Source of the DNA: Diphasiastrum complanatum
Taxonomy: Eukaryota > Streptophyta > Lycopodiopsida > Lycopodiales > Lycopodiaceae
Reading direction: 5' to 3'
DNA length: 64,000 nucleotides
Assembly: GCA_029204225.1 (NCBI GenBank)
Contig: CM055096.1
Coordinates: 38,745,866-38,809,865, forward strand
The notes beneath the pieces were generated by a model. It made no database searches and was not told where the DNA came from. It saw nothing but the letters and a program-made list of their open reading frames with translations. Below are positions 9,803 through 42,821 of the stretch, one piece after another (within the stretch, counting starts at the first letter, position 1; every line of letters begins with the position of its first letter). A program made the translations under genes and the position numbers.

Positions 9803-9947
9803 ATGTTCATAGCTTGATTAGCTTCCACAGTACAATACTCTACTAGCCGATAGAGTAATTGTCTTCTTGTTCTGTATTTTTCCAGTATCAGATTTTCATA
9901 CTTAAGTCAGTGATAGTTTCGCCTATCACTTAGGCTAATTCTTCCAC

Positions 9948-11195
9948 ATGGATTCCGAAGGAAAATCCAGTCCTCTCATGGACAAGCTTGATGGAGCCAA
10001 TTACCAACTGTGGAAATTTAAGATAAAAACTGTATTAATGGCAAAGGAATTGTATGACGTTGTCACAGGTGCCGAAGGGAAACTCAAAGTAGACGACACA
10101 ACAATTGCCAGATGGAAGCTAAAGGATGGAAAGGCTTTCGCACTGATCATTCTCAACATTACAGATACACAGATCGGCCATGTATATGAGGCTCAGACAT
10201 CGAAAGAAGTCTGGGATATCTTGAGCACGCTGTACGAAGTGCAAGATATAGCTTCTAAGCTACATCTCAGGAAGAAATTCTACTCCCTCAAGATGACAAA
10301 TCGTGATTCTCTGGAGAATCACATTAATCAATTCAAGAACGTGCTAAGACAAATGGCCGCTATCGGATCTATCATAGATGATCAAGATGCAGTGATACAA
10401 CTACTTACAAGCTTTCCAAGTTCTTACGACAGTTGGGTGATGATCATCACAACTCATCAAGAATTGACTCTTTCGAGAGTCACCACTATGTTGTTGCAGG
10501 AAGACACGCGAAGGAACGAAGCCTCAAGTTCCTCAGCTAATTCTCACGCCTTGTACACCAACAAGGGCACGACAAAGCATAAAAAGAAGAAAGGCCCGAA
10601 GCCATCAAAGCCAGACCAGAAACCAGCTCATCACAAGGAACAGTAGAATCCGCAGACAAAGAAGAAGCTGTTCTGCAGATATTGCAAATAAAACAACCAC
10701 AAAATTCAAGACTACCGAATACTTCAAGCGAAGAACAACAACAAAGGACAGTCGAATCAAGTGGAAAATGCAGCTGCAGAAGCTCCACAACCAATTCAAG
10801 AAGCGGATCATGATGCCTTCATGACCAACCATCAAGGAGCATCTGGTGACAGTTCCTGGTTCCTGGACTCCGGAGCCACTCAGCACATGACTAGCCTAAT
10901 AAGTTGTTTCGAGTCCTATACACCTTTCAGTACCCAAAAATTTGTCCACCTTGGCGACAATAGCACACAAGCTATTAAAGGTGAAGGCACTATAAGATTA
11001 TGCTTTGCAAATGATCAATCTAAGCTACTCTCCAAAGTTCTGTATGTACCTAAGTTATCCACGAATTCGCTCTCTGTAAGCAGAATCACAGATCTAGGAC
11101 ACAGAGTAGAATTCGAATGTGATCAATGTAAAGTGGTTGATAGGACAGGCAAGATCCTAGCACTCGGAAAGAGCATGGATAATTGTATAAATTAA
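9948..11195 (+). pseudogene. Copia gag and protease
   Basis: The first ORF (9948-10646, 232 aa) starts MDSEGKSSPLMDKLDGANYQ and has the copia gag (UBN2-type) pattern LDGANYQLWKFKIK with VWDILSTLYE. After a stop at 10644-10646 the same frame continues with a ruined zinc knuckle (FCRYCK, stop, NNHKIQDYR: the knuckle carries a stop, and the last Cys is Tyr). The frame reopens at 10761 with the aspartic protease motif WFLDSGATQHM, and ends VLYVPKLSTNSLSVSRI. Gag coats the RNA in virus-like particles; the protease would process the polyprotein. The stops make it inactive. Confidence 0.85.
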
Positions 11196-12238
11196 GTCAT
11201 TGTTTTTCTGCCTCTAGTCAGGCTCTTAGTACTTCAACTCAATCAAATAAAGGTTTACTTTGGCATTATAGACTTGGTCATTTAAATTATGCTGCTGTAC
11301 AACGAATGTCTAGACAATCTATTGTTCTTGATCTTGACTATCCTCGCGAAACAGTTGAGCTACCTGTCTGTCAAGACTGTCTAATTGGTAAACAGACCAG
11401 GAAGCCATTTAAATCAAGCCATCAGCATGTTGTTAGAGGATTGCTAGATGTTGTACATTCAGATATCTGTGGCCCGATGAAAAACCCTTTGTTGAAGGAT
11501 GCCAAGTATTTTATAACCTTTATTGACGAATTTTCAAGAAGAACGATGGTGTATTTCATAAAGAGGAAATCAGAAGCCTTCAACTGCTTCAGAATCTTCA
11601 AGGAGCGTGTAGAAAAGGAGACTAGAAGGATGATTAAGGCCCTGAGGTCAGACAACGGTGGAGAATATATCTCTGTCGAGTTCAAGGAGTACTGCCAAAG
11701 CCAAGGCATTGAGCAGCAGTTCATTACTCCTTATAGACCTCAGTCTAATGGCTTAGTTGAGAGGAAGAACCGAACTCTGGTCGAATCTGCTAAGTGTATG
11801 CTAGCGCATGCATCTTTGCCCAAGAAGTTTTGGGCTGAAGCTGTTTCCACTACAGCTTACATCCAGAATAGATGTTCGACCAAAGCTCTCTCATACAAGA
11901 CACCCCACGAGGTGTGGACAGGCCTTAAGCCTTCTTTGAAGAACCTAAAAGTGTTTGGGTGCATTGCCTATGTGCAGATCCCAAAAGACACAAGGAAGAA
12001 ATTGGACTTCCAAGGTCTCAAGACCATCTTGATTAGATATACCTTGTTTGATAACACCTACAAGCTGTACGATCCTGATACCCAGCAGATTTTGTATAGC
12101 CGGGATACAGTCTTTATCGAGGATCAGTTCGTCGACCTCAAAGGCAAGGAAGTTACTCAAGAAGAATCTTCATCGCCTACCATTGACACGATAGTTCGAG
12201 CCTCTAGCTCAAGCATGTCTATCGTCGACCCACTTTGA
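11183..12238 (+). pseudogene. Copia integrase
   Basis: 351-aa ORF in a different frame from the protease, overlapping its end. The zinc-binding HHCC domain shows HYRLGHLNY with CQDC. The catalytic triad is intact by eye: HSDICGP (Asp), ALRSDNGGEYIS (Asp) and SNGLVERKNR (Glu). After that come the WAEAVSTTAYIQNR region and SRDTVFIEDQFVDLKGK. The ORF ends at a stop in the linker. A shift of frame relative to gag-protease, which family members encode as one polyprotein, marks a lesion. Confidence 0.88.
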
Positions 12239-12525
12239 GACAACGAATCAGACGAAGATGTTGCTACCCAGCAACAAGTCCCAGGAGTGGTTCATCAGTC
12301 AAATCTTCCCAGAAGAGGAGCAGATGAGAGAATACCTGTATCGATTGATACTCGGATCTCTCATGTACGCAATGGTCTGTACAAGACTAGACATCTCTTT
12401 TGCTGTCAACTCACTCAGCCAATACATGGCTAATCTTGGAACTACCCATTGGAAGGCTCTTATTCGAGTCATGAGATACATTCGAGCTACCAGGGACCAG
12501 GCCAAATTGACTCAAAAACTCATAG
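12239..12525 (+). pseudogene. Copia reverse-transcriptase remnant; element truncated
   Basis: Coding jumps from the post-integrase linker straight to the end of the RT domain (REYLYRLILGSLMYAMVCTR, then DISFAVNSLSQYMAN, and HWKALIRVMRYIRAT). The catalytic half of RT, including the YVDD box, is deleted between about 12250 and 12315. Similarity ends near 12525; RNase H, polypurine tract and 3' LTR are absent. Confidence 0.8.
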
Positions 12526-14411
12526 ATCTCTCATACATTAATGAAGAGAATGAAAGTACATATAGAAACTCGTGGAGATCCATGATTCATTCTTATTTGC
12601 TTAAACATAGCCTCTCTAATCCTATTGGATGTGTGATGCAACATCCCGCACTTTTGATTGGACCCTTCCAACACATCTCTCTCTTATGATTGGACCCTTT
12701 GACTTTTGCCACCACATAGGGTGCATCACTCATCAAACCTTAAATTGATATGTGTAGGCAACCTAACTAGCTTGAGTTACATCACAAATGAATTTTGGCC
12801 TAATCATGACAAAACATGTGTACTTGACCATTTGACCTCTAAAGCCAAAATTGGCCCTAATCACCTAGTGACCGCAGGATGCTTGACTAGCAATCTTTAT
12901 GATACCCCTAAATCAAAATAATAAACTATTTCTAACAATTTTACACATGTGGGAACATGCTCCACACATGTGAAATGTACTCACAAACATAAAATCATAA
13001 AATAACCAAGATAGATTTTTGACAAATTTTCACAGCTTCTAGAATTGACTGGTTGCTTCTACTTGGTTGGGTGGTTTATCCATGTGTGTTTTCCATTGTG
13101 TTTGTCTTGTAAGCAGGATCTTGAGGAGCTTTCCCTTATAAACACTCTCTTTTCTACTTTTTCAAATAAAACAATACATCAAATCTAAGAAGTAATTATA
13201 AGCTTCTCACCGCTCTCTTCCCCCTCAACTTTAAGTCGAATCTTGTCCTGCCTTCGTCTCCTTCATCTTCATCCCCTTCTTCTTCTTGATTTCCTCCTGT
13301 ACTTTCTTTATGCATGATTTTTAGTGCTCTTGACTTAGATTTATGGAATAGATCTTGGGTTTCAATCTATGTGTGATCTATGTGCAATCACCTTTTCGAT
13401 TCGCTATTTTGAATTTCCTGATGGACATGTTATAAATATCCACCAAAAATTAAACATCAACAGTAGATTATAGCTAACAAAGCTTTCCTTCCCATTGCCC
13501 AAATGTACATTTTTCGGAAAGACGAGTTGCATAATCACATGTATTGGGGTCTACATATATCTTAGTTCTGTGACCTGTCCACCGCTTGCCAACTACCTAT
13601 AATGGTTCATTTTTCGACGACACAATAGCCACAATCAGGCCAAATATGTAGAACTTTTTCTACGATAGCAAAGTTGGCTAGAGAGACGACATTGCTTGGA
13701 TCCAGTGGAAAGCTCTTCTGTTGCAAGGTGATACTTATCATAATCGTTGTGAATCATAAAAAGAGAATGCAAAGCATTGTCATGATCAGTACCAGGATGT
13801 CACCCAAGGCAGAAGCATATGTGATTTTTTTATCCTTTATTTTCTCATTTATTAGTTAGAAATTCCTCCAACAAACCACTTAATGGAGGACAAAAGTGTG
13901 AATCGTGACAGAGAACCTCTGAACGAAAGCAAACAAATGCATAGACTCTAAGCAAAAAAATAAAGGTGTGATATTTCTTTACGTGTGTGTAACTTTACTT
14001 CCATGTCCTAACTAACAAATTTTTTGCTTCACCCTTTTGCAGTTTCACACCTTAACTTAAACTGAGATCATAGTCTTACAAAAGTATATGTAAATGGTAT
14101 AGCAGCTTGTTATTATGGGTGTGGTCAGAAATAAACTATTGTTGCAAATTGTGGCATCATGTAAATGCTTCAAAATATTAGAGTATTTGAAAATAGCAAT
14201 GACTCCATCTAATCACATCGTCCTGAATATTCGAGCTCATTTTTCTCGTGAATTTGAGATTCATGTCTAGATTTCAATGTAATTCTGAGTTTAGAGATTG
14301 CTGTAGCTAAGAGTTCCGCTAATATCTATGTCCAAATCATTTTTGGATTTATTTTGGTGAAGGTAGATAGTATTTTTTTTTACTGTAATTCAAGGTTGTT
14401 TATTTGATCAG
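12526..14411. other. Intergenic stretch left of the subtilase exons
   Basis: No convincing gene. About 13040-13145 repeats, in inverse orientation, the segment at 7680-7790. A small direct repeat 'attggaccctt' lies at about 12657 and 12691. The missing first exon(s) of the subtilase (signal peptide and start of the I9 prodomain) should lie here or have been lost; I looked for them and did not find them. Confidence 0.4.
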
Positions 14412-18309: not shown

Positions 18310-18710
18310 GTAGAATATCCCCTTTTGAAAGGTGCAAAATTTGTGTTGCTCTTCTTTATTCAACGTCATCGCAACATACCCATTCCCATTTTTTGTAGTT
18401 ATTAGTTGACAATGTTTAGTTTTGATTCTTGTTAGGCTATACTAAATTGCCTTTTGAGTTGGTTTTATGACTTGAGCATTGCCAAGAAAAAATAAACTAC
18501 CAAGTAACAATGCATCAAGTCGATCTATCTTCCACCAAAAGCATAACAAATTCATGCATATTGATAGCAGCATTCAGTACATGATAAAGATCACAATCAT
18601 GATAGGAGATACACTTCCTTCATGTACTAGAACTGAGCTATAGACATAGAGAGCACAATACTAGCTAAATAGAGAAAATAAACCATCTAGACAATGTGTA
18701 GCCACTTTTT

Positions 18711-18830
<120 letters not shown>

Positions 18831-19513
18831 AGTGTAGACCATCTATGATTCCATATGGAGACCACCTCTCTTTTATGGCACATTTTGTGATTCATATTAA
18901 GACTTTATATATGAACACTATTGTGGGAGCCTTTCAATATCTTTATGACCTCGAACCATAATGGTTGCTTTCCAAAATGAATGCACTTCAAAAGTACAAG
19001 AGCACACCTCGAAGGAATGCTTTACTAATAGTGGAATAAGGAGTGGCGAATTGGCAAGAGCTATGGGAGTCATTGAACCCCACCTATTTCCTTTACACAT
19101 GAAGTCTAAAAGTTTTGATGTTCCACATCAATCTCATGTTATGCCTTTTGCTAATGATGATGTCTTAGCCTTTAGCTAATGATGATGTGGCACTTTCTTG
19201 TTGAAAAGAGGAAGGAGCCAAAAAATAATAATTTAGAATGCTATTTCTAAGTGACCATTTTTCAAGCATTGAGCATCCCAAGGTGGACAGTGGACGAGGT
19301 GTCAATATCAGGCTTAGTTTATGACATGCATGCCCTAACTTTCAAACTGAAAAGCATTTCTTTAGTTCTAATTTCATGTAACATGTAGAATTGCAGGATA
19401 CTTTTTAGAATTTAAAAATTGAAAATGTTTACCTTTCACAATTCTAGGCATTTTTAAGAGGAACGCTATGAACTTTTGACAAAGTATGACATTTAACTTT
19501 TAGAATTCAACTT

Positions 19514-22350
19514 TCAAGCATAAAAGTAATTTTTTAGTTTGTCTTTATGTTGACACCTCTCCAAATCTTTGGCTTTTGTGGGGAAGAAAAAATATAGTAC
19601 TTTTGTTTGATTGCTATTTTGAGTAAAACCAAGTACTTTGGCAATCCAAAATGGATGTCCTTCATTGTTTTCTGAAGCTAGAAGTGCAACAAGGCTTCCA
19701 ATTTGGATTTCATTCAAATCACCACGCCATTTCATTTTTGCAGCTTTTACACTTTGCCTATTCTTCCTTGAGCCCACATAAATTTTGCGTTCCTCACCTT
19801 GCACAAGCTGCAAGAAATCATTATCTCGAGGAAGATCTGAAGGTTCGACAGTTGTAGTTGATGTTCCTAACTTATGAGGCCAATGAAATTCTTCAGTTGC
19901 TGATGTATGTTCGAGATTGAGCAAACTGATTTTTTGTTCCTCGAAAAAGTCCATCCACCAATGCTGATCAAACTCATCAAGAAAATGATAAGCTACTTGA
20001 ATACTTGATTCCAAAAAATTTAATGAGACAAATGGATCAATCTCACGATGTTCTTTTTGCGCCTTTTGTTCTTCTAGCAAGGACTTTAAGGGAGACAACA
20101 CAGATTTGAGTTGATGGAATGGTAAGCAAAAATCGAACTCCTTCAAGAGGTAGCCATGAAACTGAATTTTGAAAATAGTTTGCCCCATAATAATATAATG
20201 CCTGATTTGTTACATTTGATTTTAAACTGGTGCTGAAAGCTAATATCATTAACATTAGCTACACATCGCTCTATTTTGTTGGACGCCTTAACATAATCAC
20301 GAAAATCATATGTGTGTCTGATTAATGACACGTTTGGCTTTGGCACATACGATTCCTCAACAATGCTTTGAAGCACTGGTAAAGAAAATGCTTTCTTGCA
20401 TCTCAACCTCTTAGAAAAGCAACTAAACATTTGATCAATTTGATCGTAGGTATATCTACCAATAAAAATCCTATTTTTACTTTTTTGAAAAAAATTTTCT
20501 CCACTAGCATGGACAAGTATGCCAAAACAATCTGGTTTTTATTTTCCCTAATAGTGTTGTCAAGCTGCAAATAAAGTATTTCTGGAAGATTTTCACCAAA
20601 TTCTCAAATTATCTTATGTACAATGGTAATCGTCAAATTTGGATCATTTCGAACATTGGGATAGTTAAAAAAGACCTTGGACATTAAAGTGCCATTAAAC
20701 ACAAGTGCTCCAATGAGATGAACCTGAATAAAATCTGTCTCGTTCAAATTTTTGAGCACTCTAACAAAAAGAGGCAACATTGTTTTTTTCTGATCCATGC
20801 CATGAATAACAAGGCCCAAATATTTTTGTGGACATTCCAAATATTTCTTTCGATGCTTGGCCAACTTTTGTCTTTCAACTGTTTGTTGATGATCTATGTG
20901 CAGTTGAAGAGCTTTTGCAGCATCCACTGAAAATACAATGATTCACATATTTGATAGAATAAAAATCATACCATAATGATATTAAAAAAGATTGCAACTT
21001 AAATTTTTCCAAAACAAAAAGTATTAAAACGAATGACAAATTTGATTAATTTTTACCTTTCTCATTGTTGGTCTTTGCAAGTTGTTTTGCAGACTTTAAC
21101 AACTCGCAAGTGGAGCATACTATCATTCGTGATTTTTTGGAAATCTTTACCATTTCAAAATCTCTTTTCCAAATTCTAAGAAAATACGAGTAGCTCAAAT
21201 AGGGAGCATTTTGTTTTGGCAAACTCTTTGTACATCAAAAATATTTTTAATTTTGTAAATTCTCCGGCAAGTGAAAATATAATAAATCAAAAAATTTCTC
21301 TCCATGCACATCTATGAAATGCTTTAGCCAAGCACTTGCATATAAAGCATCTGGAGAACCAATTTGACCCTATAAGGATCCCCGTAATGTTGGGTCTTTC
21401 TGAAGTCGTGCATGCATTCGTTGAAGCCGTGAGTTTTTGATTGCGTGAACTGCTTTGTAAGCTTTGTGACAAACCTCCAAAGCATTTAAAAAATATGAAA
21501 ATGAGTTTTTGTCAGGCCTCACTGTTGCACACAAATAGTAATTTCTCTCATCCTCACTTTGTAAAAAGAAGTTTGATCTTAATTTTTTAATTTCTCTGAT
21601 ACTCAGCTTTTGCAAACAACAGGATGAGCAGCAAATGATATTTCGTACCTTTCGAATCTCAGATTTTGTAATCAATTGTTTTTGACGATTTGTTAAATCA
21701 GGTGAAGATCTCAAGTCTCTCTTGTATTTTTCTTTTTGTTTGGAGTCTGATCTATAAATTGAACCTGTGACACAAGTAGGTGCTTGAACTGGTTGAGAAG
21801 GTGTTAAAATTTCATGATTCGAAATTCTGGCTCCAAACTCAGGATATTTTGGACACTTAGAAGGCTCTAAATTTTCAACGAATATAGCTCTCTTAAATTT
21901 AACATGACGAACGTCACTTTGAGAAGGTCTCCTACGAACATGAGAAAAGCTTGAACGTCGCAGATCAATAGAGTTATGTGGATTTGTTGATTTACTAGAA
22001 TCGGTAACTGAGTGAATCGAGGCTTTGACTCATCACTCAATGATTTAACTTGTTCAAAAAAATAATGTTCTAATTGTGTAGAGCCTGTATCTGAAGTGGA
22101 GGACAAGGTTGAAAGATTTGACACAAGTTGAGTTATAGACGTCCTTTATTGAAAAGTACTTGCGTGAGGAATTTCAGAAGATGAGCGGGTAAATGATGAT
22201 GATGCCACATCATTTATGAAAACATGTAGAGAATCAAAAGTGGCTTTATAAAAAAACCTTTCATTGGGAATATTAGATGAAGATGATGCACTTGTTGCAA
22301 CGTATTGAGTTACAACTATTGAATAGAAGAGGTAGAACTACTTGACATCG
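19514..22350 (-). pseudogene. DDE/RNase-H-like transposase-family protein, decayed
   Basis: Minus strand. Pieces in order: a Ser-rich N-terminus (from ATG about 22348, with early stops); a block with KVRNIICCSSCCLQKLS, then AVHAIKNSRLQRMHARLQ (21714-21370); a part with SRMIVCSTCELLKSAKQLA, then a probable intron near 21055-20930; then 20927-20604 with YLGLVIHGMDQKKTMLPLFV. Next come ILYLQLDNTIRENKNQIVL (about 20570) and RYTYDQIDQMFSCFSKRL (about 20430, expected form GHTHDQID). The C-terminal ORF 20188-19514 ends in a small barrel-like region (IQIGSLVALLASENN, PFWIAKVLGF). I recall this as a widespread eukaryotic family (InterPro DUF7869 or close; from memory) whose invariant Asp/Asn/His-Asp motifs suggest an RNase-H fold. 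Stops at several places and His-to-Tyr changes in the GHTHD motif mark it dead. It is divergent from the ParB-methyltransferase gene. Confidence 0.65.
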
Positions 22351-22599
22351 TAACCTTAAAAAAATTCTAACTATGTACTTATGCTAAGCATAGACCCGTT
22401 AAAATAGTTAACACATAAAACTAAATGTGCTCCACAAACTTAACTGCAACCTATGCTGGTCATAGAACAAATAAAAAGCTATGCAAACCTCAATAGACGT
22501 AAAGAAGAAAAACAACTAAATGCAAATGAGCAACAAGCCTAGAAAGTAATTGGTTAGTTGAAATTTCCAGCAGCTACCACGCCTTAAATACGTTTGGCA

Positions 22600-22660
22600 G
22601 CATCCTTAGGATTAGGGTTGACCCAAGAGTAGGTTTAGGGTTAGGTTTAGGTTTGGACGG
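22600..22660. promoter_or_regulatory. Telo-box-like / TTTAGGG cluster in the intergenic region
   Basis: 'ggattagggttgac' followed at 22631-22656 by AGGTTTAGGGTTAGGTTTAG. These are plant telomere-type TTTAGGG units, read on the minus strand as AAACCCTAA telo-boxes, which occur in plant promoters. It lies upstream of both divergent genes in a GC-richer segment (22560-22850). Confidence 0.35.
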
Positions 22661-23085
22661 TGGGCTCGAGGTCGGCATGAGGTGAGGTGAGTCGCAACAA
22701 CTCGGTCCCGACGCAAGCTCGAGGTTGGCGAGAAGTGAGTTGAGTCTCATGCTCCAAATCGGCGTGAGGTGGGGATCTCGAAAAAAAATTTGTTTAAGGA
22801 TCATAGTCCAAGCATAACTCACCTCATCTGCGAATTCATTAGCACACATGATGTTAGAGCTCTCATTGCGACAAAGTCACAGATTTCTATAGTATATTGC
22901 ATATGTTCATGCTCACACATTTCTTGACGGTAAGATTATTGTCATTTTTTAACTTTGTTCTATGCTTAGCATGGGTACTAATATTCAGGTTTTAGCTAGT
23001 GTTCATCTTCTTAAAACTTGGGTGACCTATGCTCAGCATAGGTGGCTGCACGAGTCCTCTCCTCTAACCTATGTTGAGCATAGGT

Positions 23086-23421
23086 TGTGTTCGGGTCCTA
23101 AGTAACAACCTATGCTCAGCATAGGAAGCCGGCGAGATGTTTCTATTCTTATCACGTTTCGACCTATGCTGAGCATAGGTTGCATCTCTGGTCCTCTTCT
23201 AACCTATGCTCAGGATAGGTCATCACTCGCGTACTCTAGTCCCACCTATGCTCAACATAGGATGTCTTCGCATGCTGCTTGCTAACCTATGCTTAGCATA
23301 GGTTAGAAGAGGACTAGAGATGCAACCTATGATTAGCATATGTCGATAGGTGATAAGAATAGAAACATCACGCCGACATCCTATGCTGAGCATAGGTTGT
23401 TACTCAGGACCCGAACACAAT
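23086..23421. repeat. Large imperfect inverted repeat, ~135-bp arms
   Basis: 23086-23220 ('gtgttcgggtcctaagtaac' onward) is the reverse complement, with mismatches, of 23283-23421 (ending 'caggacccgaacacaa'). A 62-bp central loop remains. Each arm contains several of the 19-bp palindromes plus conserved spacers such as 'tctattcttatcac' against 'gataagaatagaa'. This is palindrome nested in palindrome, and it could extrude as a cruciform. Confidence 0.9.
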
Positions 23422-23695
23422 CCATGCTCAGCATAGGTCGTTATTCGTATTTTTTCCATTTTACAAGGCTTAGTCTGAGAAAAGTGAAACTTTTGAGATG
23501 TTTTAGTAAGAAAATGTGTTGAATTGTTAGTTATGATTTTTAGAGATTTTTCATAAAAACTGCTTGTCTATTTAAAGTTTTATGTATTTTTATTAAGGTA
23601 ATGTTTGAAATTTTTCTAAAGAATTTTTTTCTCTGCAGATTCTCAATTGTCTCTGATAATCTTCGAAATGTTGAGGAATTTTTTTTCAATTTCAG

Positions 23696-26600
23696 GTAAA
23701 CCTCAAGATATTCCACTGAAAGATAAGAAAAAATTCATGTATTACTTCACTAGAGGGGTCAACAACACAAAGCTGTTTGAGCTTTTTATTTATTTAGCTG
23801 AGAAGCCTGGCAGGGGAGACTCACTGTTCAAAATTCAAGGAAGATTGCTTGCTGATCAACCAGATGAGGATGAGGAAGAAGGTTTTGTGAACTTGCTTGT
23901 AAAGGTGATGGATAAGTCTTGTTCTATTTTCATTCTAAGCGAGACTATGATAAATATTTGACTTTGCTAGGACGAGGCCATCAAAGCCTATTTTGATAAA
24001 GCTCTAGTTACTTTGGTGTGTAATTATAAAACATATTCATGTATGTTTACATTTGTTCCATGCTTAGCATAGTGGTTATTAAATATAAAATTCTATGAAC
24101 TTTTAAGTAAAAAACTTTTTTGTAAATTGAGTTGTCATGTGTTGTGAGCATAGCCCGTAAAAATGCCTTTACTCATTATATTTTAATCTTGTTTTTTGTT
24201 TCTGTCCAGAGCATGAAGCAATGCTTGAAAATGGTTCTAGCTGTTATTGTTGAGGGGAAAGATCCAGTCTACTCATTACAGAGTTCAAAAGGTGTAACTA
24301 TTGGACCTTGCAAGCCTACTTCTAGCACTACTCAGGTCACAAAGCCAGCCTCTAAAAATGTTGAGGATGATACTGTAGCTGTCCCTCATCTCAAAAAAAA
24401 AGATCTCATAATATCTTTGAGTCCTCTTCCACTAGACCCAAGTCACGCCCAAAGACCATGGGTACACATCGCCACAAGTCCATTCCATCTGCTAAAAGCA
24501 AGAAAGCCGTGACCGAACCGTTGACGTCTTTACCTGGTGCCTCCATCTATCCCTTACAAGATAGCTCTGAGCTTGCTAAATTAAGGAAGATATTCATAAA
24601 ACAAAAAAAAATTAAAGAAACAACTTTGATTTTAGATATAAATTAGTGTGATAGGCCACCTGTAGATCCAATAACAGGAGACAAGCCAGTGGAAGTAAGA
24701 GAATAAAATGAAACACATGTACATAACTTAAAAGTAAAATTTAAAGATCATACACAGGCCATAGTTACTCCTTTTATTGTTTTGGTTGATCCCAATGAAT
24801 GCAACGATGTTGCAAATTTTGATTTTTCTTTATTAGATTCATATAATTTTTTTGTTCTTGGGGGCAAACACAGTTTACAAGCCCGAAAACAATTATCTCA
24901 AGAGTATTCCCATATTCCATCCTTTCGAAATGTGAGTGCAATTGCATTTGCTGGCCTGACAGTGGAAGAAGCCAAATTATTGGCTTGGGATCATAACATT
25001 GATCAAGATTATTGGATGAAAATGACCGTCATACAAAGAATCCGATTCTTTCTCAAAGAATACACGAGAGTCTCCAAAGCAGGAGATGTGAATCAACTAG
25101 AGCTAAAAGCACTTTGTGCTCAAGAGACATGCTTGTCTTTTGATTCAAAAAATCCTACGCAGAGCCTTACAAAATATGATAATTTTTTTCAGCTTGCTTT
25201 TCGCAGTGACTAGGTAACTTTTCTTGCTATGCTCATCATGGAATGCTCTGGTCATAATATATGTTATAATTCTTTTAAATTGTTTTTATCAGACTAAAAT
25301 TTTGAACTCAATTTTAATACTCCCTAAATTTCTTATCAAATAATTTTTTTTTATTTTATTTTAGGTGTGGGCCCTTGTTGATAATTTTTTTGACAAATGG
25401 AAAACTTTTCAAATAAAAGGCCAATCTGCTTAGGGTGCCTCAAAGTCAAAGAAAAAAGTTGTCAACACTCAAACTCTAAAGCCAATCCCTACAGAAATGG
25501 GAATATCAGAGTGGAAGAGCATGCAAGGGATTAGCTTTCCAGACTAATAATAAGTGTTCTTTCTAGAGTTGCCGATGGTCAACTTTCTTTGGTAGAAATG
25601 AGAAAAGAATTTAAAAGGTAATAGTTATAATCTAAATATTTATTTTCATGTTACTTTTTGTAATAAAGTGATTTTCATGATTTTGTTGGATTTTTAACAA
25701 TTATACTTTTTAAATGCAGGCATAAATTATTTATGAAAGTTCAAGAAGCCCTTGTGACAAGGTTAAATTGTCAAGATTTCGAAGAGTGTCAGAGGCTTTA
25801 TCCTCTGAGCAGCCGAAATAAATCTTTGAGTCCATTTCTGATTTTGTTTAGAGACATGGTATTTATTTCACCCATGTTTAGCATAGGTGCTTATTAATTG
25901 TTTCTTTTTTATATTTTATGTCCCCTATGCTAAACATAGCTTTTTCTTTATTTAATTATTTCTTTTTGATACTTTAAGTCTCTTTTTATTTTGTATTTTA
26001 TGTCTCCCATGCTAAGCATAGCTTCTTTTTTTTCAGTCTCCCGAAGATAAGAAAAACAAAGTCCTTTCAGAGCAATTCAAGAGACATATTCTGAAGGCAA
26101 AAGTAGAAAAAAGGGACAGAGAGAGATTAGCACGGGGTGACCATTGCGGAGGAGGATCCATTAGAGACCTAGTTTCCCAAAAGTGTCGATGATCAACCAT
26201 GCTTTTACTCAGTTGAGGAGGGCGATTGCAGAGAAATTTCAAAACTTAAAAAAAAAAAAAGGCCTTATACACTTTGCATTGCCGATATACCATATGGATT
26301 TCAGATGAAGGAATCATTGAATGACGATTCCCCCTTCAAATTCACTGAAATCCATAGTTTCATGCAGGGTTTTCTCGAAGTCACAACTTCTCCAATTTGG
26401 AGAGTTGTTATTTTTCATTCTTCTTGACAGTCAGCTTCAATACAGAAAGCTCTACTAATTTTTTGTAATGCGAGAATAGAAAGTGTTGTGTGGTAAGTTT
26501 TTAAGTTCCTGAATTATTAATTTGTATTTTAATTCATAATTATATTTTAAATTTTTTATTTTAATGTTAAATTTTTTTATTTATTTTACTTGTAATGTTC

Positions 26601-27213
26601 CATGTCAGGTACAAGCCCAATGTCAGGAACTGGGGAGGAGCACGACTTTGCAATAAAATAGAATACATAACCATCAGTTATTATTCATTGGATGACAAAC
26701 GCTCGATGCTTTATTACAACACTTTCAGATTGACAAGTTTTGGAAACTTGTTCCAATATCCAACCATGACCAAGAAACTAAAGAATCCAATGACAGGTTC
26801 TGTGGCTTGTCTCTACCAAAAGCCACAACAATTGATTAATCATTCAATTGATATTTTTTCTCACCTAGCTGATTGGGTGCAGACATGTTGCTGTAGTAGA
26901 TTTATATTCTAATTTAGTTGATTTTTTAAAAATGAGAATGAAATATCTTTCAGTTTTGCTAGATGAACTATCTGAGGTGGGAAAAAGTTTAGATATCGAG
27001 GATTTAGTAATTCCCTTGTCCAAGGAACCTCAGCCTCCTGCTAGCGAAAAAGTAGGCGATACAGGAGAATTTGCTGATGTCTTGGTTCAAGATTATAATG
27101 TGGTTACGGTAGTCGAGGAAACTGTAGAAGAGGTGTCACTTTAAACTACAGTGGCTACTCAAGAAAAAGAAAAAGATGTAAATGACCTCGATGATATTTG
27201 GGAATAAAAAATT
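23696..27213 (+). pseudogene. ParB-like domain + beta-class DNA N6/N4 methyltransferase protein, multi-exon
   Basis: Probable exons: 23696-23904 (KKFMYYFTRGVNNTKLFELF), 23971-24015 (DEAIKAYFDKALVTL), 24210-about 24646 (Ser/Lys/Pro-rich linker), about 24750-25213, about 25363-25545, 25550-25618, 25719-25859, 26036-26493 and 26609-27144. The 24782-25213 exon reads FFVLGGKHSLQARKQL, then LTVEEAKLLAWDHN, the two conserved boxes of ParB/Srx-fold domains. The 26.2-26.9 kb exons read CIADIPYGF (DPPY-type motif IV), SVVWYKPNVRNWGG, KIEYITISYYS and SVACLYQKPQQL, then DWV followed by a degraded FxGxG. This is the motif order of beta-class adenine/cytosine-N4 methyltransferases. An acidic tail ends at 27144. 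Frameshifts (24.5, 26.15 kb) and stops (for example near 26427) inactivate it. ParB-methyltransferase pairs are known from phages and plasmids; one split by introns in a plant genome is unusual. Confidence 0.6.
24056..26022. repeat. Six further copies of the palindrome inside introns of the ParB-methyltransferase gene
   Basis: Copies at 24056-24075 (CCATGCTTAGCATAG), 24136-24156 (degenerate), 25226-25243 (CTATGCTCATCATGG), 25870-25888 (CCATGTTTAGCATAGG), 25922-25941 (CCTATGCTAAACATAG) and 26005-26022 (CCATGCTAAGCATAG). All lie in predicted introns rather than exons. Confidence 0.8.
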
Positions 27214-27960
27214 CTCTTTTGTTTCAAAAGATAATTGCGTTTACATTTTTTGATGTATTGTGTTTTAAAATCTTTTTGATTGATTTAACGTTCTTAAATT
27301 TGTTTTTTAATGAAATTAAGAATTTGAAATATTTTAAAATTTTTAACATTGATAATCATTACCAAAATTAAAATTGTAACGATTTGTCAAGTTTATAGTA
27401 TTTAAATTTTGGATGTGTTTTTATAATATTTTTTGTAGAAAAAATATTGCTAAGAATTTAAAAAATTAAAAAGATTTTTTTCAGGGTGATTTAAATATTT
27501 TCACAAATCATTTAGTCTCGATTATTGTAAAGTAATTTTATTTGTGTTTATTTAGTGTTTAAATATTCAATGAACTTACATAGGTATAAGTAAAGACTTT
27601 AAAAAATTTAAAACTTTAAAAAATACTAATATTAAATTTTTACCATAATTTAAAAAAAAAATCAACTCAAAAACTGTAATTTAAAAAACTTTTAAATTTA
27701 AAAAAAAAACTATAACTTTTGTTTTAAATAAGCAAAAAATATTCTAGTTATTTTAGTGGTTGTGTATCTAATGATTTTATTTTGAATAGTATAATTATTT
27801 CATATAAGCTAATTTTAAGTTATTTATGAAAATCTATTGACCAAATTTTTGTAGCTTGAATTATTTTCTTGCAAAATACAACATTTTTTTAACATTATAA
27901 TATATTTATTTGAAGCATTTTAAATTTGGATACGTTTTAAAAAAATTGAAAAAAATGTGA
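27214..27960. other. Very AT-rich stretch, possible element end
   Basis: About 750 bp of A/T-dominated sequence with no open frame, directly after the ParB-methyltransferase gene. Composition changes abruptly near 27957 ('tgatgccatcacgagag'). I searched by eye for an inverted match near 19200-19500 and found none that is convincing. Confidence 0.4.
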
Positions 27961-28473
27961 TGCCATCACGAGAGTAGCGAGGTATTCCTTGTATCTAGGA
28001 CTATATGAACGATCCAAAGTATACTATACCTGCTAAACCGTACTCCCTTGCCAATGAAGATCAGACGTATGCCCTAAGGGAGAGTGAAGAATTTTCTAAC
28101 TACAGACCAATATAAATGATATGCTTGTTAACTAAATGATCAAATGTGATTAGAAGGATGAACTTGGCCCCTTGCTACTTTCACATGGACAACATTTTGA
28201 CTTTGATCACACATCCATTTTGGCATCCAAGTTGGCCTAAAGTTGGTATTTGCTTATTTTTCATGTTATATTCTATAGTTAACTACACTATTTTGGCTAC
28301 TAATTTGTGTGCTAGATCTTTACAAAAGCCTTGGTGCCATGATTCATAAACAAATGTGATGAGATAGCATAGTTTTCCTAGATACATGAGCTTGAGTGTG
28401 GTAAACATTAGAGGTATTTTGATTGAAGATATTTCCTTTGTTTCTTGAATGTTTTCATTATTTTCAATGGCAG

Positions 28474-29459
28474 GAAATTGATTGGGGCACGATTTTTCAT
28501 CAAAGGCTATGAAGCTGAAAACGGACCCCTAAATGAGACAGCCACTGGGGAATTCTTGTCACCAAGAGGTAGACTAGGGCATGGAACACACACTTCTTCA
28601 ACTGCAGGAGGTAGGTTCGTCAAGCATGCCAATTTGTTTGGACTTGCAAGAGGTACTGCCAAAGGAGGAGCACCTTCCTCCAGAATTGCAGCCTATAAGG
28701 TTTGTTGGCACGGAGATTCCAATGGTAGAAATTGCTATGATGCTGATGTGCTCGCTGCTTTCGATCAAGCAATTGCTGATGGAGTTGATCTTTTCACAAT
28801 CTCACTTGGTTTCGGAGAACCACTTCCTAATTATTATTTCGCAGATAGTATTGCGATAGGAGCTTTTCATGCCGTTGAAAACGGAATACCAGTAGTCTGT
28901 AGTGCTGGAAACAATGGCCCAACTCCAGGCAGTGTCATTAATGTTGCTCCTTGGATGATATCAGTTGCTGCTAGTAGCATCGACCGCACGTTCATCTCAA
29001 AGGTCACTCTAGGCAACAATGCAACATAATTTGTAAGTTCTATTATCATTTTAACATAGTCCCAAAGTCCTTAATATTTGTTCATTATGCTGATCCTTGC
29101 ACAACTCAAATATCTACAAAATGTGAGTATGTAAGTTGCTAATCCAGAACTTAAGCATGTCATGATTGTCATACAATTTACCATGTTGACAAATGCTCTT
29201 ATTCTCCAAGATTGTAACTGTAACACATTGATTCTTGTAGAGATATGACACAACCAAAATGATCTGATCGATGAGTAACTAGACCTGCAACAGCAAAATT
29301 TAGTACCGAGGATCAGACCACTTTATAATTTATATAAATACAAAAGTTTGTTCTATGCTGTCAGGGAGAAAGCTTGTCACAAGATAAGCTACCAAATAAA
29401 TTTTTTCCACTTGTTTCATCAGCTGATGTGGGAAATTCAAAATCGCCACTGCGAAAGAG
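28474..29459 (+). pseudogene. Subtilase exons: catalytic His and oxyanion Asn
   Basis: Exon 28474-29032 encodes KLIGARFFIKGYEAENG, GRLGHGTHTSSTAGG (His), GGAPSSRIAAYKVCW, DGVDLFTISLGF and PVVCSAGNNGPTPGSV (Asn), ending FISKVTLGNNAT, then a TAA stop and TTT before GTAAGT. Exon 29365-29459 reads GESLSQDKLPNKFFPLVSSA and ends AAAGAG|GT. The TAA two codons before the donor is the only lesion seen in this block. Confidence 0.92.
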
Positions 29460-29610
29460 GTTTTCATTTACCCAATCATTCTTTCTTTTAAACACTCTTG
29501 TGTTTGTAAAGCCTCTCAAATATTAGCTATGATGTAATCATGTATATAAGCTTAGCATATTGCGTCATTTTTGAAAAAAAAATTTACAAATCATTTGCTT
29601 TGTGCTGCAG

Positions 29611-29856
29611 CACACACCGTTTTCCGGGTTCACTGGACACCGTGAAAGTGGCAGGTAAAATAGTTGCTTGCCTAGGTGGTGTAATTGACGATATCTCAAA
29701 GGGGCTCACAGTGAGGCTCGCTGGTGGCACTGGCATGATTCTTTCCAATCAACCCTCCACTGCGTTTGGACTCATTGCTGAACCTCATCTTCTTCCTGCA
29801 TCTCAACTCACTGCTGAGGATGGAGCTGCTGTTTTTGCCTACATAAACTCTACTAG
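29611..29856 (+). pseudogene. Subtilase exon: protease-associated domain
   Basis: Encodes FPGSLDTVKVAGKIVACLGG, then GGTGMILSNQPSTAFG and ASQLTAEDGAAVFAYINST. This is the protease-associated insert typical of plant subtilases. Junction codons fit: AG|C gives Ser on the left, AG|A gives Arg on the right. Confidence 0.92.
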
Positions 29857-30417
29857 GTACACACAATGTAATTATGAGAACATAAGTTTTTCTATGCTGT
29901 CACATAATCTCTCTGTTTTCCAAGTTGTCAATACAAGATAGAGATTCAAGATCAAACCAGCACCTGTCATGGCAAAATTTTCGTCTCAAGGTCCAAATAA
30001 AATTACACCAGACATTTTGAAGGTAAATAACATATGTATTGAAAATGCACTTCAAGATTCTGAACATAAACTCTACTAGGTACACACAATGTAATTATGA
30101 GAACATAAGTTTCTCTATGCTGTCACATAATTCCTCTGTTTTCCAAGTTATCAATACAAGATAGAGATTCAAGATCTCAATAGTCTATTTTCACCGCATG
30201 ACTTGAATATGAATTGTAGCACTTGTTCTGATATTGTGAAGCTTATAACCATTTTTTTTTCAGATCTCCTGTTGCCCTTCTGGGTGCTGTATCAACTATT
30301 TTAAATGTCAAACCAGCACCTGTCATGGCAAAATTTTCGTCTCAAGGTCCAAATAAAATTACACCAGACATTTTGAAGGTAATAACATATGTATTGAAAA
30401 TGCACTTCAAGATTCTA
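29841..30417 (+). repeat. Local duplication of an exon edge, intron start and part of the next exon
   Basis: 29841-29953 (end of the PA exon plus intron start) recurs at 30064-30176. 29954-30061 (68 bp of the next exon, from [13 protein letters not shown], plus its donor and following intron) recurs at 30310-30417. In the first copy the 133 bp of intron and exon start found at 30177-30309 are missing, so it has a donor but no acceptor and only a partial exon. Confidence 0.88.
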
Positions 30418-30711
30418 AATAGATCATAATAACGATGATGAGGTTCGTAACATAAAAATGTCTAATTTGGTACACGGGGCTCTATTGTGTGCATGCAGCC
30501 AGATATTACAGGTCCAGGTTGAATATTTTGGCAGCATTCTCTGAGGCATCATCTCCCACGGGTCTCTCTTTTGACAACCGTGTGGTGAAATTCCATGTAT
30601 TATCAGGCACTTCGATGTCTTGCCCTCACATTGCTGGAGTTGTTGCATTACTTAAGGCTTTGCATCCAGATTGGAGCCCTGCAGCTATCAGCTCAGCAAT
30701 CATCACCACAG
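30264..30711 (+). pseudogene. Subtilase exons leading to the catalytic Ser
   Basis: Exon 30264-30378: [20 protein letters not shown], then [14 protein letters not shown]. Exon 30499-30711: PDITGPG, then a shift, then [34 protein letters not shown] (catalytic Ser) and [14 protein letters not shown]. The family sequence GPG-x-NILAAF is normally continuous; here GGTTGAAT lacks one base, giving TGA at 30520. Confidence 0.92.
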
Positions 30712-30756
30712 GTTTCTCTCTTATACGTTGTCACTAGTAGCTTTTGTTTTGCTCAG

Positions 30757-31123
30757 TGAACTGTCTTGACAACACTGGGAATCCCATTCTTGATGCATCT
30801 CTGAACATTGCCGGCCCCTTCAACTATGGTGCTGGCCACGTCAATCCGAATAAAGCTGCGGATCCCGGGCTGGTCTATGATGCATCTCCTATAGACTTTG
30901 CTTTTCCTATGCAGCTTAAACTACACTCAGACACAAAGCTTAGCAGGAACGTTTGTTTGCCCTACAATTGATCTTCCGACTCCAAGTGATCTGAATTATC
31001 CTTCCATTGCTATCTCCAATCTGACTGCTAAACGAACGATCACAAGAACAGTCACAAATGTTGGAGGTAAAAGTACATACACTGTAACCATTGCATCTGC
31101 TGTAGGTATATCTGTGTCAGTTT
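30757..31123 (+). pseudogene. Subtilase last exon, part before the retrotransposon
   Basis: Encodes [40 protein letters not shown] and, after a frameshift near 30900, [22 protein letters not shown], then TRTVTNVGGKSTYTVTI: the end of the catalytic fold and the start of the fibronectin-III-like domain. It breaks off at the LTR start at 31124, in the target sequence AGTTT. Confidence 0.92.
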
Positions 31124-31408
31124 TGTTAAAATTTCACAATTCTAACTTGACCAATTTTGGTCATATGGCTTGTGAATTGTATTATGGTCATGTTGTGGCT
31201 TGTCACCTGAGGTCCGAGAAGCTTGCTGTACTTCACTTTGGTTCACTTGATCAAATCTATGTGCCTAATGTGGAGTTGAATGCCAAAATTGCTAATTTTG
31301 GTAACTAGTCTTGATTCTAGCTCATAGTTTGGATCTAGATCTTTTATTTGTGCATCCTCCCTCACTTTTAGGATTGATTGGGATTGAATTTGCTGTAAAA
31401 TTTTGTCA
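31124..31408 (+). repeat. 5' LTR, shortened (285 bp)
   Basis: Aligns with both ends of the 3' LTR but misses a central block. The join is near 'ggcttgtcac' (about 31207). The subtilase frame runs into this LTR and stays open to 31308 by chance. Confidence 0.9.
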
Positions 31409-38149: not shown

Positions 38150-38840
38150 TGTGAAAAGTACAGTACTAAGGACCATAAATGGATCTTTGAATGATCCACA
38201 AGGTGATTGTATGCTTGTTAAACAATCTATCAGAAACTAGTCATCAGAAAACAAGATCTAGTTTAGCAGCTTGATAGGAAACAAGTAGAGACAATCAAAG
38301 CATTGATCAAATAGTCTAATCCAACTCCACACGTGTGGAAATAAGGCTGTAGTACGGCCTGTAGACAGTGTTTACAAAGTCCTAAAGCTGGGTTTCATTG
38401 GAAAAATAGAGTAATCACCATACAATGAGAGGAAACTCGAGTTTCTCCTTGAGGCTCCAAAAAGTTTCTATCTTCTCACTATGGAGAATGGAAATACATA
38501 ATAAAACACACTTCCTTTGCAAAGTTAGGTGAAAATCCAGCATGTAATAAGGAAGTAGACTCCATTTTCTTGCCCTAATGTGAAAACCCTAGCCTAGATC
38601 CAAGAGTCATGCTTGGTAGGTGCATGGTAGGTACAAATCTCATCATAAATCATGGTCTAGATCCTACAAAGTAGGAATCACTACCAAATAGACACAACCA
38701 CTCCTCTTGACTCGTGGTAACCTACTTTAGGTGTGTATGTACAAGTGGCACTTTGGCCATTCAAGTAACCAACAAACAATATTGACAAAATGTACAATAT
38801 TCTACATGGCTAGATTTGCCAATGTAGGCAATTTTTCACA
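38150..38840 (-). repeat. Copia 3' LTR
   Basis: 691 bp; TG..CA ends; next to the CATAT duplication. The pol frame reads through the polypurine tract (as EEE) and terminates inside this LTR at 38802. Confidence 0.97.
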
Positions 38841-39926
38841 CTCCTCCTCAAATCTAGCCTTGGAGATTACAATGCTTTTATCAATAACTCCAATTGAAGA
38901 TCTAATCTTGACAAATGAATCTTTAGGTAAAGGTTTAGTAAATAAATCAGCCAAGCAACTTGATGATGACACGTGTTGGAGCTTGATCTCTTTAGCTTGC
39001 ACTTTTTCCCTCACGAAATGATGAGCAATTTCGATGTGTTTGCTCCTTGCATGGAATGTAGGATTAGTTGCAAGTGATTGGGCTGATTGGTTGTCACAAT
39101 AGATGATAGGGATCTCCTCCTCCATGACATGAAGCTCCACCAATAGCCTTTTGAGCCACAAGACCTCCTTGCATGTTGATGTCAAGGCCTTGTATCCGGA
39201 TTCTGTGGAAGATAGGGAGATGGTATCTTGCTTTTTGGAAAGCCATGATACTACTCCATCACATAGAAAGGTAGCAAAGGCACTTGTTGATCTTCTATCC
39301 ACTTTGTCACCTGCAAAATCCGAGTCACTATAGGCTCTTAAGCCAAGATTAGTTCCTCTATACAAAATACCAAAATTCTTATTGAGTGAAATGTATCTAA
39401 GAACTCTTTTGGCCATCTTCCAATGTGAAACTAGAGGACTTTGCATGAATTGGCTTAACTTTCCAACACTATAACTAAGATCAGGTCTAGTTATAGTTAA
39501 ATAGATCAAGGAGCCAATAAGCCTTCTATATAATGTGATGTCCTCAAAGGATGCTTCATCACAACCAATAGATGCTTTTACATTTTGCTCCATTGGTGTC
39601 TCAATGCCTTTACAATTCTTCATTCCAAATCTATCTAGGATGGATGTAGCATATTTAGATTGACAAATGAAGCTTAAATCACATCCTCTAATAACCTCTA
39701 TTCCAAGAATGAAGCTCAATAGGCCGAGATCTACTATCTTAAACTCTTTTTCTAAAGCAATTTTTACATCTCTAATTCCATCTAGATCATTACCACTCAA
39801 GATAATGTCATCTACATACAAAACAAGAATAATGATCATGCCATCATGAAAACTTATATACAATGATGGATCATAGGCACTCATTACAAAATTGATGGAA
39901 ATGAGAAAAGAGTTTAGCCTAGAGTA
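38802..39926 (-). pseudogene. Copia RT second half and RNase H
   Basis: Open from just after the premature stop at 39927-39929; the annotated ATG is at 39884. It contains the RT active site VLYVDDIILSGN, LSFILGIEVIRG, TPMEQNVKAS, LIGSLIYLTITRPDLSYSV, then RNase H: AYSDSDFAGDKVDRRSTSA, LSSTESGYKAL (usual form STEAEY), IYCDNQSAQSLATNP and HARSKHIEIAHHFVREKV. It ends LADLFTKPLPKDSFVKIRSS and a short tail. RT and RNase H copy the RNA into DNA inside virus-like particles. The Glu-to-Gly in the TESGY box may matter for RNase H. Confidence 0.93.
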
Positions 39927-40205
39927 TCATGCTCTAGGTGCTTGCTTGAGCCCATAAAGGCTCTTCTTCAAAAAACACACCTTTCCTTCATGCTTTGCCT
40001 TGATGAAGCCCTCGGGTTGCCTCATGTAGATCTCTTCCTCCAAATAACCATTGAGGAATGCATTTGTGAAGTCAAGTTGGAATAGCTCCCAATTGAAGGT
40101 TGTAGCAAGACTAATGATCAACCTGATAGTAACAAGCTTAGCCACAGGAGCAAAAGTCTCATCATAGTCAATGCCTTTGGTTTGTAAAAAAACTTTTGGC
40201 AACAA
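39927..40205 (-). pseudogene. Copia RT first half
   Basis: FLQTKGIDYDETFAPVAKLV, LFQLDFTNAFLNGYLEEEIY and SLYGLKQAPRA, then TGA where the family has Trp (QAPRAW). It is frameshifted relative to the upstream ORF by one extra T in a run near 40190. Confidence 0.93.
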
Positions 40206-41830: not shown

Positions 41831-42821
41831 TTATGTAAGTCATTGTAAGAAAGTAAGGTGGAGAATATGTCATGTGGGAACTTGCCCCACTATCAATCCA
41901 CCAAGAATCATTGGTGTTGCTCTTGGATGATGGTGGTTTGTTGGAAACCATCAAGGATGACTCTTCATCCTCCTCTTCCTCCTGATGTGCAATGTTGCTT
42001 TGTTTGCTCTCTTGTGCCTTCTTCTTCTTGAGACATTCTGATGCAAAATGTCCTTTCTTTCCACCAAAAAAACATTTGTACTTGGACTTGTCTTTGATCT
42101 TGCCCTTTGAGCTTGAAGCCTCATCCTCCTCCTTGGTCTCCTTGAAGTGCTTCTTCTTGCCATTGGTCTTCTTCTTGCTTTTGAATGAGAAATTAGCTTT
42201 CTCATCACCATCCTGCAGAGAAATAGCATTCATTCTTGCATTGGTATGCAACATCCTACACTCTTCAGCTACTAATACACTGTGTAGCTTTTCTATAGTA
42301 GGCAAAGTGTCTTGGATTGCAAAGCTTTGGACCAAATTTGTAAAGCCACTCCCTACACCATTTAGGACAATCTGAACAAGCTCACTATCTTGAATCTTCT
42401 CTCCAATGGAAGCTAACTCCCTATTAAGAGACTTGATTCTTAGCACATAATCTTGTGCATTCTCATCACTCCTCTTTATGCTTTGTAGAATCTGATTCCT
42501 AAGCATGAGAACCCTCGAAGTGTTACTAGACTCATAGATAGATTTTAAAGATTCCCAAGCCTCTTTAGCACTCTTACATGATGATACTTCCCTTAAAATA
42601 TCATTGCTTACATTCATCTTAATACAGTGAAGTGCAAGCCTAGACCTCTTCTTGTATCTCACTAATTCCTGTGCACCTAGAGGTTCATCTTCATCATCTA
42701 TTAGAAACTCATAAAGATCCTGGAGCACCATTAGTGACTCCATCCTCACTTTCCAAATAGCATAATTGGTAGAATTTAACCTCTCACTAGCTTCTAGAAG
42801 GTAGGCTCCCACTGATCCCAT
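41793..42821 (-). CDS. Copia gag and protease
   Basis: 342-aa ORF starting MGSVGAYLLEASERLNSTNY, with the gag (UBN2/retrotran_gag_2) pattern WKVRMESLMVLQDLYEFL and AKEAWESLKSIYE. Then a Lys-rich stretch and a zinc knuckle CFFGGKKGHFASEC, in which the second Cys of CX2CX4HX4C is Gly. Protease motif WWIDSGASSHMT. The normal frame is lost about 15 residues later, near 41840, so protease would be truncated and not joined to integrase. Confidence 0.93.
   Translation of the reverse strand: MGSVGAYLLEASERLNSTNYAIWKVRMESLMVLQDLYEFLIDDEDEPLGAQELVRYKKRSRLALHCIKMNVSNDILREVSSCKSAKEAWESLKSIYESSNTSRVLMLRNQILQSIKRSDENAQDYVLRIKSLNRELASIGEKIQDSELVQIVLNGVGSGFTNLVQSFAIQDTLPTIEKLHSVLVAEECRMLHTNARMNAISLQDGDEKANFSFKSKKKTNGKKKHFKETKEEDEASSSKGKIKDKSKYKCFFGGKKGHFASECLKKKKAQESKQSNIAHQEEEEDEESSLMVSNKPPSSKSNTNDSWWIDSGASSHMTYSPPYFLTMTYINQSILQVVKNVR

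Follow-up and report, generated by a model that had tools for sequence, protein, structure and literature searches.

The window, that is, the whole 64,000-nucleotide stretch of Diphasiastrum complanatum DNA analyzed here, contains the remnant of a DNA transposon with two genes that are transcribed away from each other (Table 1). Gene 1, on the minus strand, encodes a protein with a DUF7869 region, while gene 2, on the plus strand, is predicted to encode a single protein that starts with a PH-like domain, continues with a ParB-like domain and a helical (HTH-like) region, and also carries a beta-class DNA methyltransferase. The region between the two genes is occupied by an array of short palindromes.

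Table 1. Features of the transposon copy in the window (positions are those of the window; a dot denotes no strand)
Feature	Position	Strand	Remarks
Two-gene DNA transposon remnant	19595..27957	.	Extent based on copies that extend past both edges
Gene 1, C-terminal region	19517..20209	-	Open frame; counterpart in copy L051 aligned with fern gene 1
Gene 1, DUF7869 (PF25273) region, two frames	20146..20942	-	Profile match
Gene 1, N-terminal piece	21373..22029	-	Open frame; 27% identical to the N-terminal part of its fern counterpart
Three more palindromes, gene 1 side (22378, 22450, 22959)	22377..22976	.	
Ten palindromes of 17-19 nt, (A)CCTATGCTNAGCATAGG(T)	23025..23438	.	Candidate binding sites in the region that separates the divergent genes
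Inverted repeat, 159-nt arms (23067-23225 / 23280-23438), 89% complementary	23067..23438	.	Holds most of the array
Gene 2, exons 1 and 2	23695-23904, 23971-24015	+	N-terminal domain, by-eye alignment with the fern-type N-terminal domain
Lone palindrome	24057..24073	.	Within a gene 2 intron
Gene 2, large exon: linker and ParB-like domain	24213..25210	+	Frame change near 24395; stops at ~24644 and ~24704
Gene 2, ParB-like domain piece, FFVLGGKHSLQARKQL ... LTVEEAKLLAWDHN	24707..25213	+	38-46% identity to fern-type proteins P0001-P0024
Gene 2, middle exons	25365-25618 (with frame change), 25721-25858	+	The second has a counterpart in fern contigs
Three palindromes (25870, 25923, 26005)	25870..26023	.	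Intron before the methyltransferase exons
Gene 2, motif IV exon (ADIPYGF at 26281-26301)	26040..26492	+	Frame change near 26173; stop at 26425
Gene 2, exon YKPN..EYITISYYS..YQKPQQL..ADWV	26610..26880	+	Motif I, expected to follow, is lost in the window copy
Gene 2, last part GCRHVAVVDLYSNLVDFLKMRM, acidic tail	26872..27204	+	Different frame

A preliminary description of this DNA had proposed that a selfish element carries an intron-containing ParB-methyltransferase gene, and suggested profile searches, a structure prediction, and a search for homologues. It covered only the plus-strand half of the larger element. The DUF7869 partner on the opposite strand, the array of palindromes, and the abundance of copies all escaped it, as did the fact that the window copy is dead.

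The window feature belongs to a DNA transposon with terminal inverted repeats that is abundant in this genome, and the window holds one decayed copy, a pseudogene that has acquired stops and frame changes and no longer has motif I. The feature is recognized as a transposon because it has many copies that end in the same termini and mostly differ in their flanks, one of them inside a Copia-like element. When the genome (1.74 Gb, 5176 contigs) was searched, the ParB-like exon gave 2341 candidate places, and all of those scored (150/150) match at 74-100% amino-acid identity; the DNA of the left side gave 1496 candidates and that of the right side 1159, with 40 scored in each set. With thousands of candidate copies and common termini, the carriage by a selfish element in a plant genome is borne out.

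Followed outward, other copies extend beyond 19594 on the left and 27957 on the right, where they end in common termini, AACACGATGAC and GTCATCATGTT, respectively. The window copy, instead, has about 750 bp missing or replaced at its left end beyond 19594 and has lost its right terminus after about 27957. The divergence at 19594 is sharp, and the last part of gene 1 below it is unlike the other copies compared, save for a near-identical copy on the same contig. In the copies, the termini read AACACGATGACATTTG.. on the left and ..GGTCATCATGTT on the right, with mostly unrelated flanks, and the terminal inverted repeats of this genome are AACACGATGAC / AACATGATGAC. The few loci with common flanks are duplicates of one another. 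Insertions lie within sequences read as Copia and as Ty3/Gypsy: copy L045, with 8.8 kb between its flanks, sits inside a sequence read as a Copia element, and its occupied site is 3 nt longer than five related empty sites, with imperfect repeats.

Relatives of the element occur in ferns. A profile search with gene 2, in which the 7991 candidates with most words in common were scored, retrieved at least 24 proteins from ENA and JGI sources, with the ParB-like part 38-46% identical. In a scan of prokaryote genomes, gene 2 gave nine loci that are confined to a single bin, labeled uncultured Trichormus sp.; the fern Azolla has Trichormus azollae as its cyanobiont. The contigs in question contain genes split by introns and pieces resembling Ty3/Gypsy elements, from which we infer that they are Azolla nuclear DNA. 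Wherever a fern contig extends over both genes, gene 1 and gene 2 have the same divergent layout. The methyltransferase exons are open in contigs L076, L077, and L079, while in L083 the frame of gene 2 is broken ahead of its motif IV exon; further relatives are found in the fern Ceratopteris richardii, the best of the named ones being 72% identical in the methyltransferase part. The fern termini also start with AACAC, and their inverted repeats agree at 26 of 33 positions in L077 and over 37 nt (81%) in L083. The copy in L077 has TGTT at both sides, and taking one out restores a continuous Ty3/Gypsy-like frame; no target-site duplication was found in L043, L082, or L083, and no fixed duplication could be established from the copies examined.

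The peptides quoted in the preliminary description (ADIPYGF, VWYKPN, EYITISYYS, YQKPQQL, and others) are present where it placed them, and its reading of several exons with GT..AG introns holds as well: the splice sites can be read in the window, with YKPN beginning at 26610, and three exon breaks, one preceding HKLFMKV.., one following ..FRDM, and one separating ..VVW from YKPN, fall at matching places in the fern contigs, which also share ADIPYGF. For this comparison the exon boundaries were set by reading, and only comparable breaks were counted. The counterpart of the large exon is open in copy L031 (8475-9521).

Regarding the methyltransferase, the window pieces alone gave no significant Pfam or PHROG match because of their decay, namely stops, frame changes, and loss of the AdoMet-binding motif I. 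The profile search, fruitless for the window itself, succeeded with the corresponding pieces of relatives: PF01555 (curated cut-off 26.7 bits) matches copy L057, read with X at one stop (E 1.3e-12, 48.6 bits), copy L060 (E 1.9e-11, 44.8 bits), and the fern methyltransferase (E 1.1e-16, 61.9 bits). The motif I region is seen in 8 of 10 other copies examined, as exact LDLFSGSGTT in two (L057, SHPIDWVLDLFSGSGTTSACAVQKGKHVAAIDLDSNLVDFVKMRM, and copy B) and varied in six. Motif IV (xPPY-like) comes before motif I (FxGxG), in the order ADIPYGF, QKP, DLFSGSGTT in the copies, with DLFSGTG+TT in the fern contigs. By profile and motif order, the enzyme is a predicted member of the N6_N4_Mtase family (PF01555), beta class, in agreement with the preliminary description. 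The nearest PDB sequence matches are 5hek, listed as DpnA (1.9e-7), CcrM (2.2e-7), MboIIA (3.1e-6), and RsrI (8.2e-4), of which CcrM and RsrI are adenine enzymes; the N4-cytosine enzyme PvuII follows behind the N6-adenine enzymes at E 0.2. As unrelated antibody chains appear in the PDB listing from E 0.015 (with two scFv chains at 0.0026 and 0.0057), the weaker rows carry no meaning. Because N6-adenine enzymes lead these matches, the type is probably N6-adenine. In the phage collection, 356 records match the methyltransferase part, eight being listed at 25-28% identity.

The ParB-like part was approached both by sequence and by predicted structure. By sequence, nothing significant emerged with Pfam, PHROGs, NCBIfam, the PDB profile, or hhalign: the window piece had no PDB match, the ParB_N profile had 0 matches in the window's genome and none in six fern-type relatives (best weak match DUF6551, at 0.033), and against two single ParB sequences from cyanobacteria the outcome was also negative, albeit weak with a profile Neff of 1.7. 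Likewise, IMG/VR returned 57 pattern matches of which 0 were confirmed, and the ParB-like part of a fern-type relative had no match in the phage collection. By structure, the model of the fern-type protein P0002, which has a confidence of ~50-75 in the ParB-like region, ranks ParB, Noc, or PadC at positions 1-8 among the 990 chains compared (with a middling Z of 5.2-6.4, and rmsd >10 in three of the eight), and three of these top eight align over 183-204 residues, including the helical region. The ParB-like boxes of the preliminary description therefore survive as a predicted fold that matches ParB structures, and not as a significant sequence profile; in these terms gene 2 is assigned a ParB-N fold. 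From rank 9 down, PH-like and RanBD-like folds take most positions, over residues 15-128 of the same model, which suggests a PH-like fold for the N-terminal domain. The ParB nucleotide (P) motif, placed by eye, reads GGSHS or GGKHS in the gene 2 relatives vs AGERRYRA in the true ParB L090, and because the GERR motif is so altered, nucleotide-driven clamping may be lost.

On the opposite strand, the DUF7869 profile (PF25273, curated cut-off 26 bits) matches the window at 20146-20538 (E 3.6e-16, 59.8 bits) and, under the cut-off, at 20607-20942 (E 7.8e-4); the corresponding region of copy L051 scores far better (E 2.9e-43, 148.1 bits), as does gene 1 of the fern contig L083 (E 1.8e-52, 178.2 bits), which is a single stop-to-stop frame of 888 codons. 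The protein has long stretches outside the DUF7869 match. Its named relatives come from Ceratopteris, Adiantum, and the liverwort Riccia, with the lancelet Branchiostoma far weaker. Judging from the context of the element, gene 1 is presumed to be the transposase, with DUF7869 as its catalytic region.

The palindromes of the array follow each other at spacings of 42, 41, 54, 40, 42, 41, 40, 54, and 41 nt, and all 17 palindromes of the 64 kb (at ≤3 mismatches) fall inside 18850-27990, within the element. The whole genome has 5717 sites at ≤1 mismatch vs 0 for a reversed control pattern. Among 30 loci with the ParB exon, near-duplicates included, 22 have at least three sites within the 1.5 kb upstream, and one has just one; the remaining seven lack upstream sites, and in them the collinear similarity to the window ends before the array. 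The trio in the methyltransferase-side intron is found in copy B (C13:24589571) too.

A search allowing up to 4 mismatches did not find the window's own palindrome in any of the nine fern contigs, where a palindrome unlike it in sequence and alike in place and style, GTCGATGCNNNGCATCGAC (≤3 mismatches), occurs instead. Upstream sites, from 2 to 15, occur in six of the nine: 15 in L078 and 10 in L080, mostly in 50-52 bp steps; 4 in L076 at 41 bp; 8 in L081 (40-43, 54, and one 84 bp step); 5 in L077 (31 and 50 bp); and 2 in L083. The other three, L079, L082, and L084, have no core site; the contigs of L079 and L084 begin 318 and 630 bp before the match, respectively, and the genes abut in L082. 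On a common dyad axis, the half-sites of window and fern share 5 of 7 positions (p ~0.013 for that register and 0.044 when three registers are considered), an agreement that alone could be chance. The core ATRC-N3-GYAT exceeds mononucleotide shuffles in L078 (16 vs 0.8 expected), L080 (11 vs 0.55), and the window element (10 vs 0.9), an excess that is partly circular because these very sites served to define the core. Steps of ~31, 41, and 51 bp may correspond to whole turns of the helix, and those of 54-55, 63, 67, and 72 bp fit badly; the phasing figure was made without a control, and its resultant mainly mirrors the near-constant spacing.

Comparison of the copies points to past constraint on gene 2. 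Median dN/dS is 0.26 for the ParB exon (419 of 435 pairs), a value biased low because its loci were picked by protein similarity to the window, 0.45 for the methyltransferase exon (89 of 91 pairs), and 0.72 for the DUF7869 exon (151 of 171 pairs), where constraint is weak. The fern values are ~0.03, with dS saturated and few usable pairs (4 of 36, 3 of 15, and 4 of 15). The pairs are non-independent, and identical pairs and those with undefined or low dS were dropped. As dN/dS among copies is below 1, the data suggest that gene 2 was retained as a protein during the spread of the family.

The genes, their domains (the ParB-like one through its predicted fold), their layout, and the array are thus features of both this genome and the fern DNA. 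As the best explanation, with a probability of about one half, we propose that gene 2 is an accessory gene of the two-gene transposon, and that its protein docks on the array, methylates the element, and controls its genes and/or shields it. We infer from this arrangement a sequence of events, along with the identity of the modified base and the transposase role of gene 1: the ParB-like and helical parts would dock on the palindromes in the common promoter region; the methyltransferase would then methylate the DNA of the element at the array or nearby; and this methylation would repress or license both divergent genes and/or shield the element from host silencing. In favor of this explanation, the array stands in a matching place here and in the fern contigs, despite the differing palindrome sequence. 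Self-marking of the element by gene 2, raised in the preliminary description, is a possibility.

Four other explanations have to be weighed against the accessory role. In the first and main rival, which we regard as unlikely but worth keeping in sight, the array belongs to the transposase: the palindromes would be recognized by the gene 1 protein and would play no part in the methylation of the element by gene 2. Transposases of other transposons bind repeated sites, the array adjoins gene 1 as much as gene 2, and the stretches of gene 1 outside the DUF7869 match could bind DNA. However, the array is central and not subterminal, being placed like an operator between divergent promoters, and it is gene 2 that has a predicted ParB-like and helical region of the palindrome-binding kind. 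The second, about one chance in five by our estimate, sees gene 2 as chiefly an anti-silencing factor, whose adenine (or N4-cytosine) methylation along the element would exclude 5mC or repressive chromatin, leaving the array for transcription only. Epigenetic modifiers borne by transposable elements are known, with TET/JBP genes in fungal transposons and SET genes in oomycete ones, according to the relevant passages of a recent report (PMC12730594), and the very high copy number of the element would agree with such a function; on the other side, the copies read here are decayed, so that element activity was lost at those places.

It is improbable that gene 2 rides along as a passenger and does nothing for the element. 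Function is indeed unassigned for most accessory genes of the giant Ectocarpus transposons, as stated in the passages on them (PMC12477816), but gene 2 lies beside the same kind of partner in the same orientation here and in the fern DNA, dN/dS among its copies is below 1 (within the limits given above for each value), and the array recurs in a matching position. Hardly credible, lastly, is a host gene, i.e., a ParB-methyltransferase domesticated by the plant: its introns and the long open frame of some copies would suit this origin, but the candidate copies number in the thousands, end in common termini, and mostly have different flanks, and on these grounds, together with the insertions within Copia-like and Ty3/Gypsy-like sequences, we reject it.

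Several known systems resemble this element in part. As in bacterial ParB-parS, a predicted ParB-like fold with a helical region goes together with palindromic sites near the gene; unlike it, no ParA partner is found among the genes read, the GERR motif is not kept, the sites form a many-site array, and the methyltransferase is in the same protein. We take the window palindrome to be unrelated to parS. The same domain pair, enriched in mobile elements, is known from fusions of the ParB-CTPase fold with N6_N4_Mtase (PF01555) in phages and prophages, which the passages on them describe as commoner in phages than in bacteria (PMC12704722), and which are prokaryotic, unlike the plant gene 2. A close case is a brown algal transposon, described in a recent paper (PMC12477816), in which an accessory gene on the strand opposite the transposase likewise joins a ParB-like domain to an N4C/N6A DNA methyltransferase; its authors propose that the protein binds and modifies its own transposon, and cite green and red algal cases. 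That element has a transposase of the Sola1 superfamily and measures 21.5 kb, whereas the window element has a land-plant host and a DUF7869 partner, and its palindrome array finds no mention in the passages on the algal one. Fungal DNA transposons with TET/JBP genes also bring their own DNA-modifying enzyme, but, in the passages concerned (PMC12730594), they have other transposases and act by oxidation of 5mC, while methyl addition is predicted for gene 2. Among the matches listed in our literature search, there was no such transposon with a land-plant host, a DUF7869 partner, or a palindrome array, and DUF7869 itself gave no match. Hence a transposon-borne ParB-methyltransferase is of a kind already known, and what is new to the literature searched is its land-plant host, together with the DUF7869 partner and the array of palindromes.

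What this element adds is a concrete candidate binding site, with a matching place, similar spacing, and a common core in this genome and in the fern DNA. More speculatively, and with odds we put clearly below even, ferns and the plant of the window may harbor a transposon with a ParB-parS-like identity system of its own, in which the ParB-methyltransferase would load on the regularly spaced palindromes and methylate adenine on the element, the resulting mark would be separate from the host 5mC, and protein and site would have changed together between hosts with the core and the dyad register kept. The candidate site and the long open fern copies make the idea of self-marking directly testable, and the element bears on whether 6mA or 4mC is a targeted mark in land plants.

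The palindromes, candidate binding sites that form an array between the two genes of the element, also occur inside the ParB-like + methyltransferase gene, where three of the array type, with spacings of 53 and 82–84, lie within the intron preceding the methyltransferase exons. The same trio, with the same spacings and in the corresponding intron, is present in another copy of the element in this genome (copy B, C13:24589571), and at least three palindromes are found 3' of the ParB exon in 22 of 30 loci with this exon.

The tail of the DUF7869 gene, the presumed transposase gene, is sharply unlike that of the other compared copies in the window copy and keeps an open frame (VLYFFFPTKAKDLERCQHKDKLKNYFYA). 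The element and its flanks are repeated in the same genome (G000:C5:38590765-38600265), ∼170 kb away, in inverted orientation and with 99.8–100% identity; either the segment was recently duplicated in inverted form, or the repeat is an artefact of the assembly. The features in question, together with those identified outside the element, are collected in the table.

Features of the window and their positions
Feature	Position	Basis
Copia-like retrotransposon frames, some long and open	9939-12689 and 38802-42836	read by eye
Duplicated segment (element and flanks)	18700-28200	
Divergent tail of the DUF7869 gene	19517-19594	
Intronic palindrome trio	25870-26023	
Subtilisin-type protease-like gene pieces, directly right of the element	28427-31308	read by eye
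LRR receptor kinase-like frames, one of 890 residues	56815-59893	read by eye

Regarding the related fern-type element, its contigs (L076-L084) are eukaryotic transposon contigs lying within a cyanobacterial MAG, uncultured Trichormus sp. ERR2144891_bin.1, and they probably derive from the fern Azolla. Motif I of the fern gene is interrupted by an intron in the glycine loop (DLFSGTG | TTLACAL; L083:7600-7710), and L076, L077, and L079 have their motif I intron at the same place. Two other methyltransferases, P0052 and P0054, share 38–39% identity with the fern enzyme and carry ADIPYGF and DLCCGTG; these may be relatives carried by other transposons.
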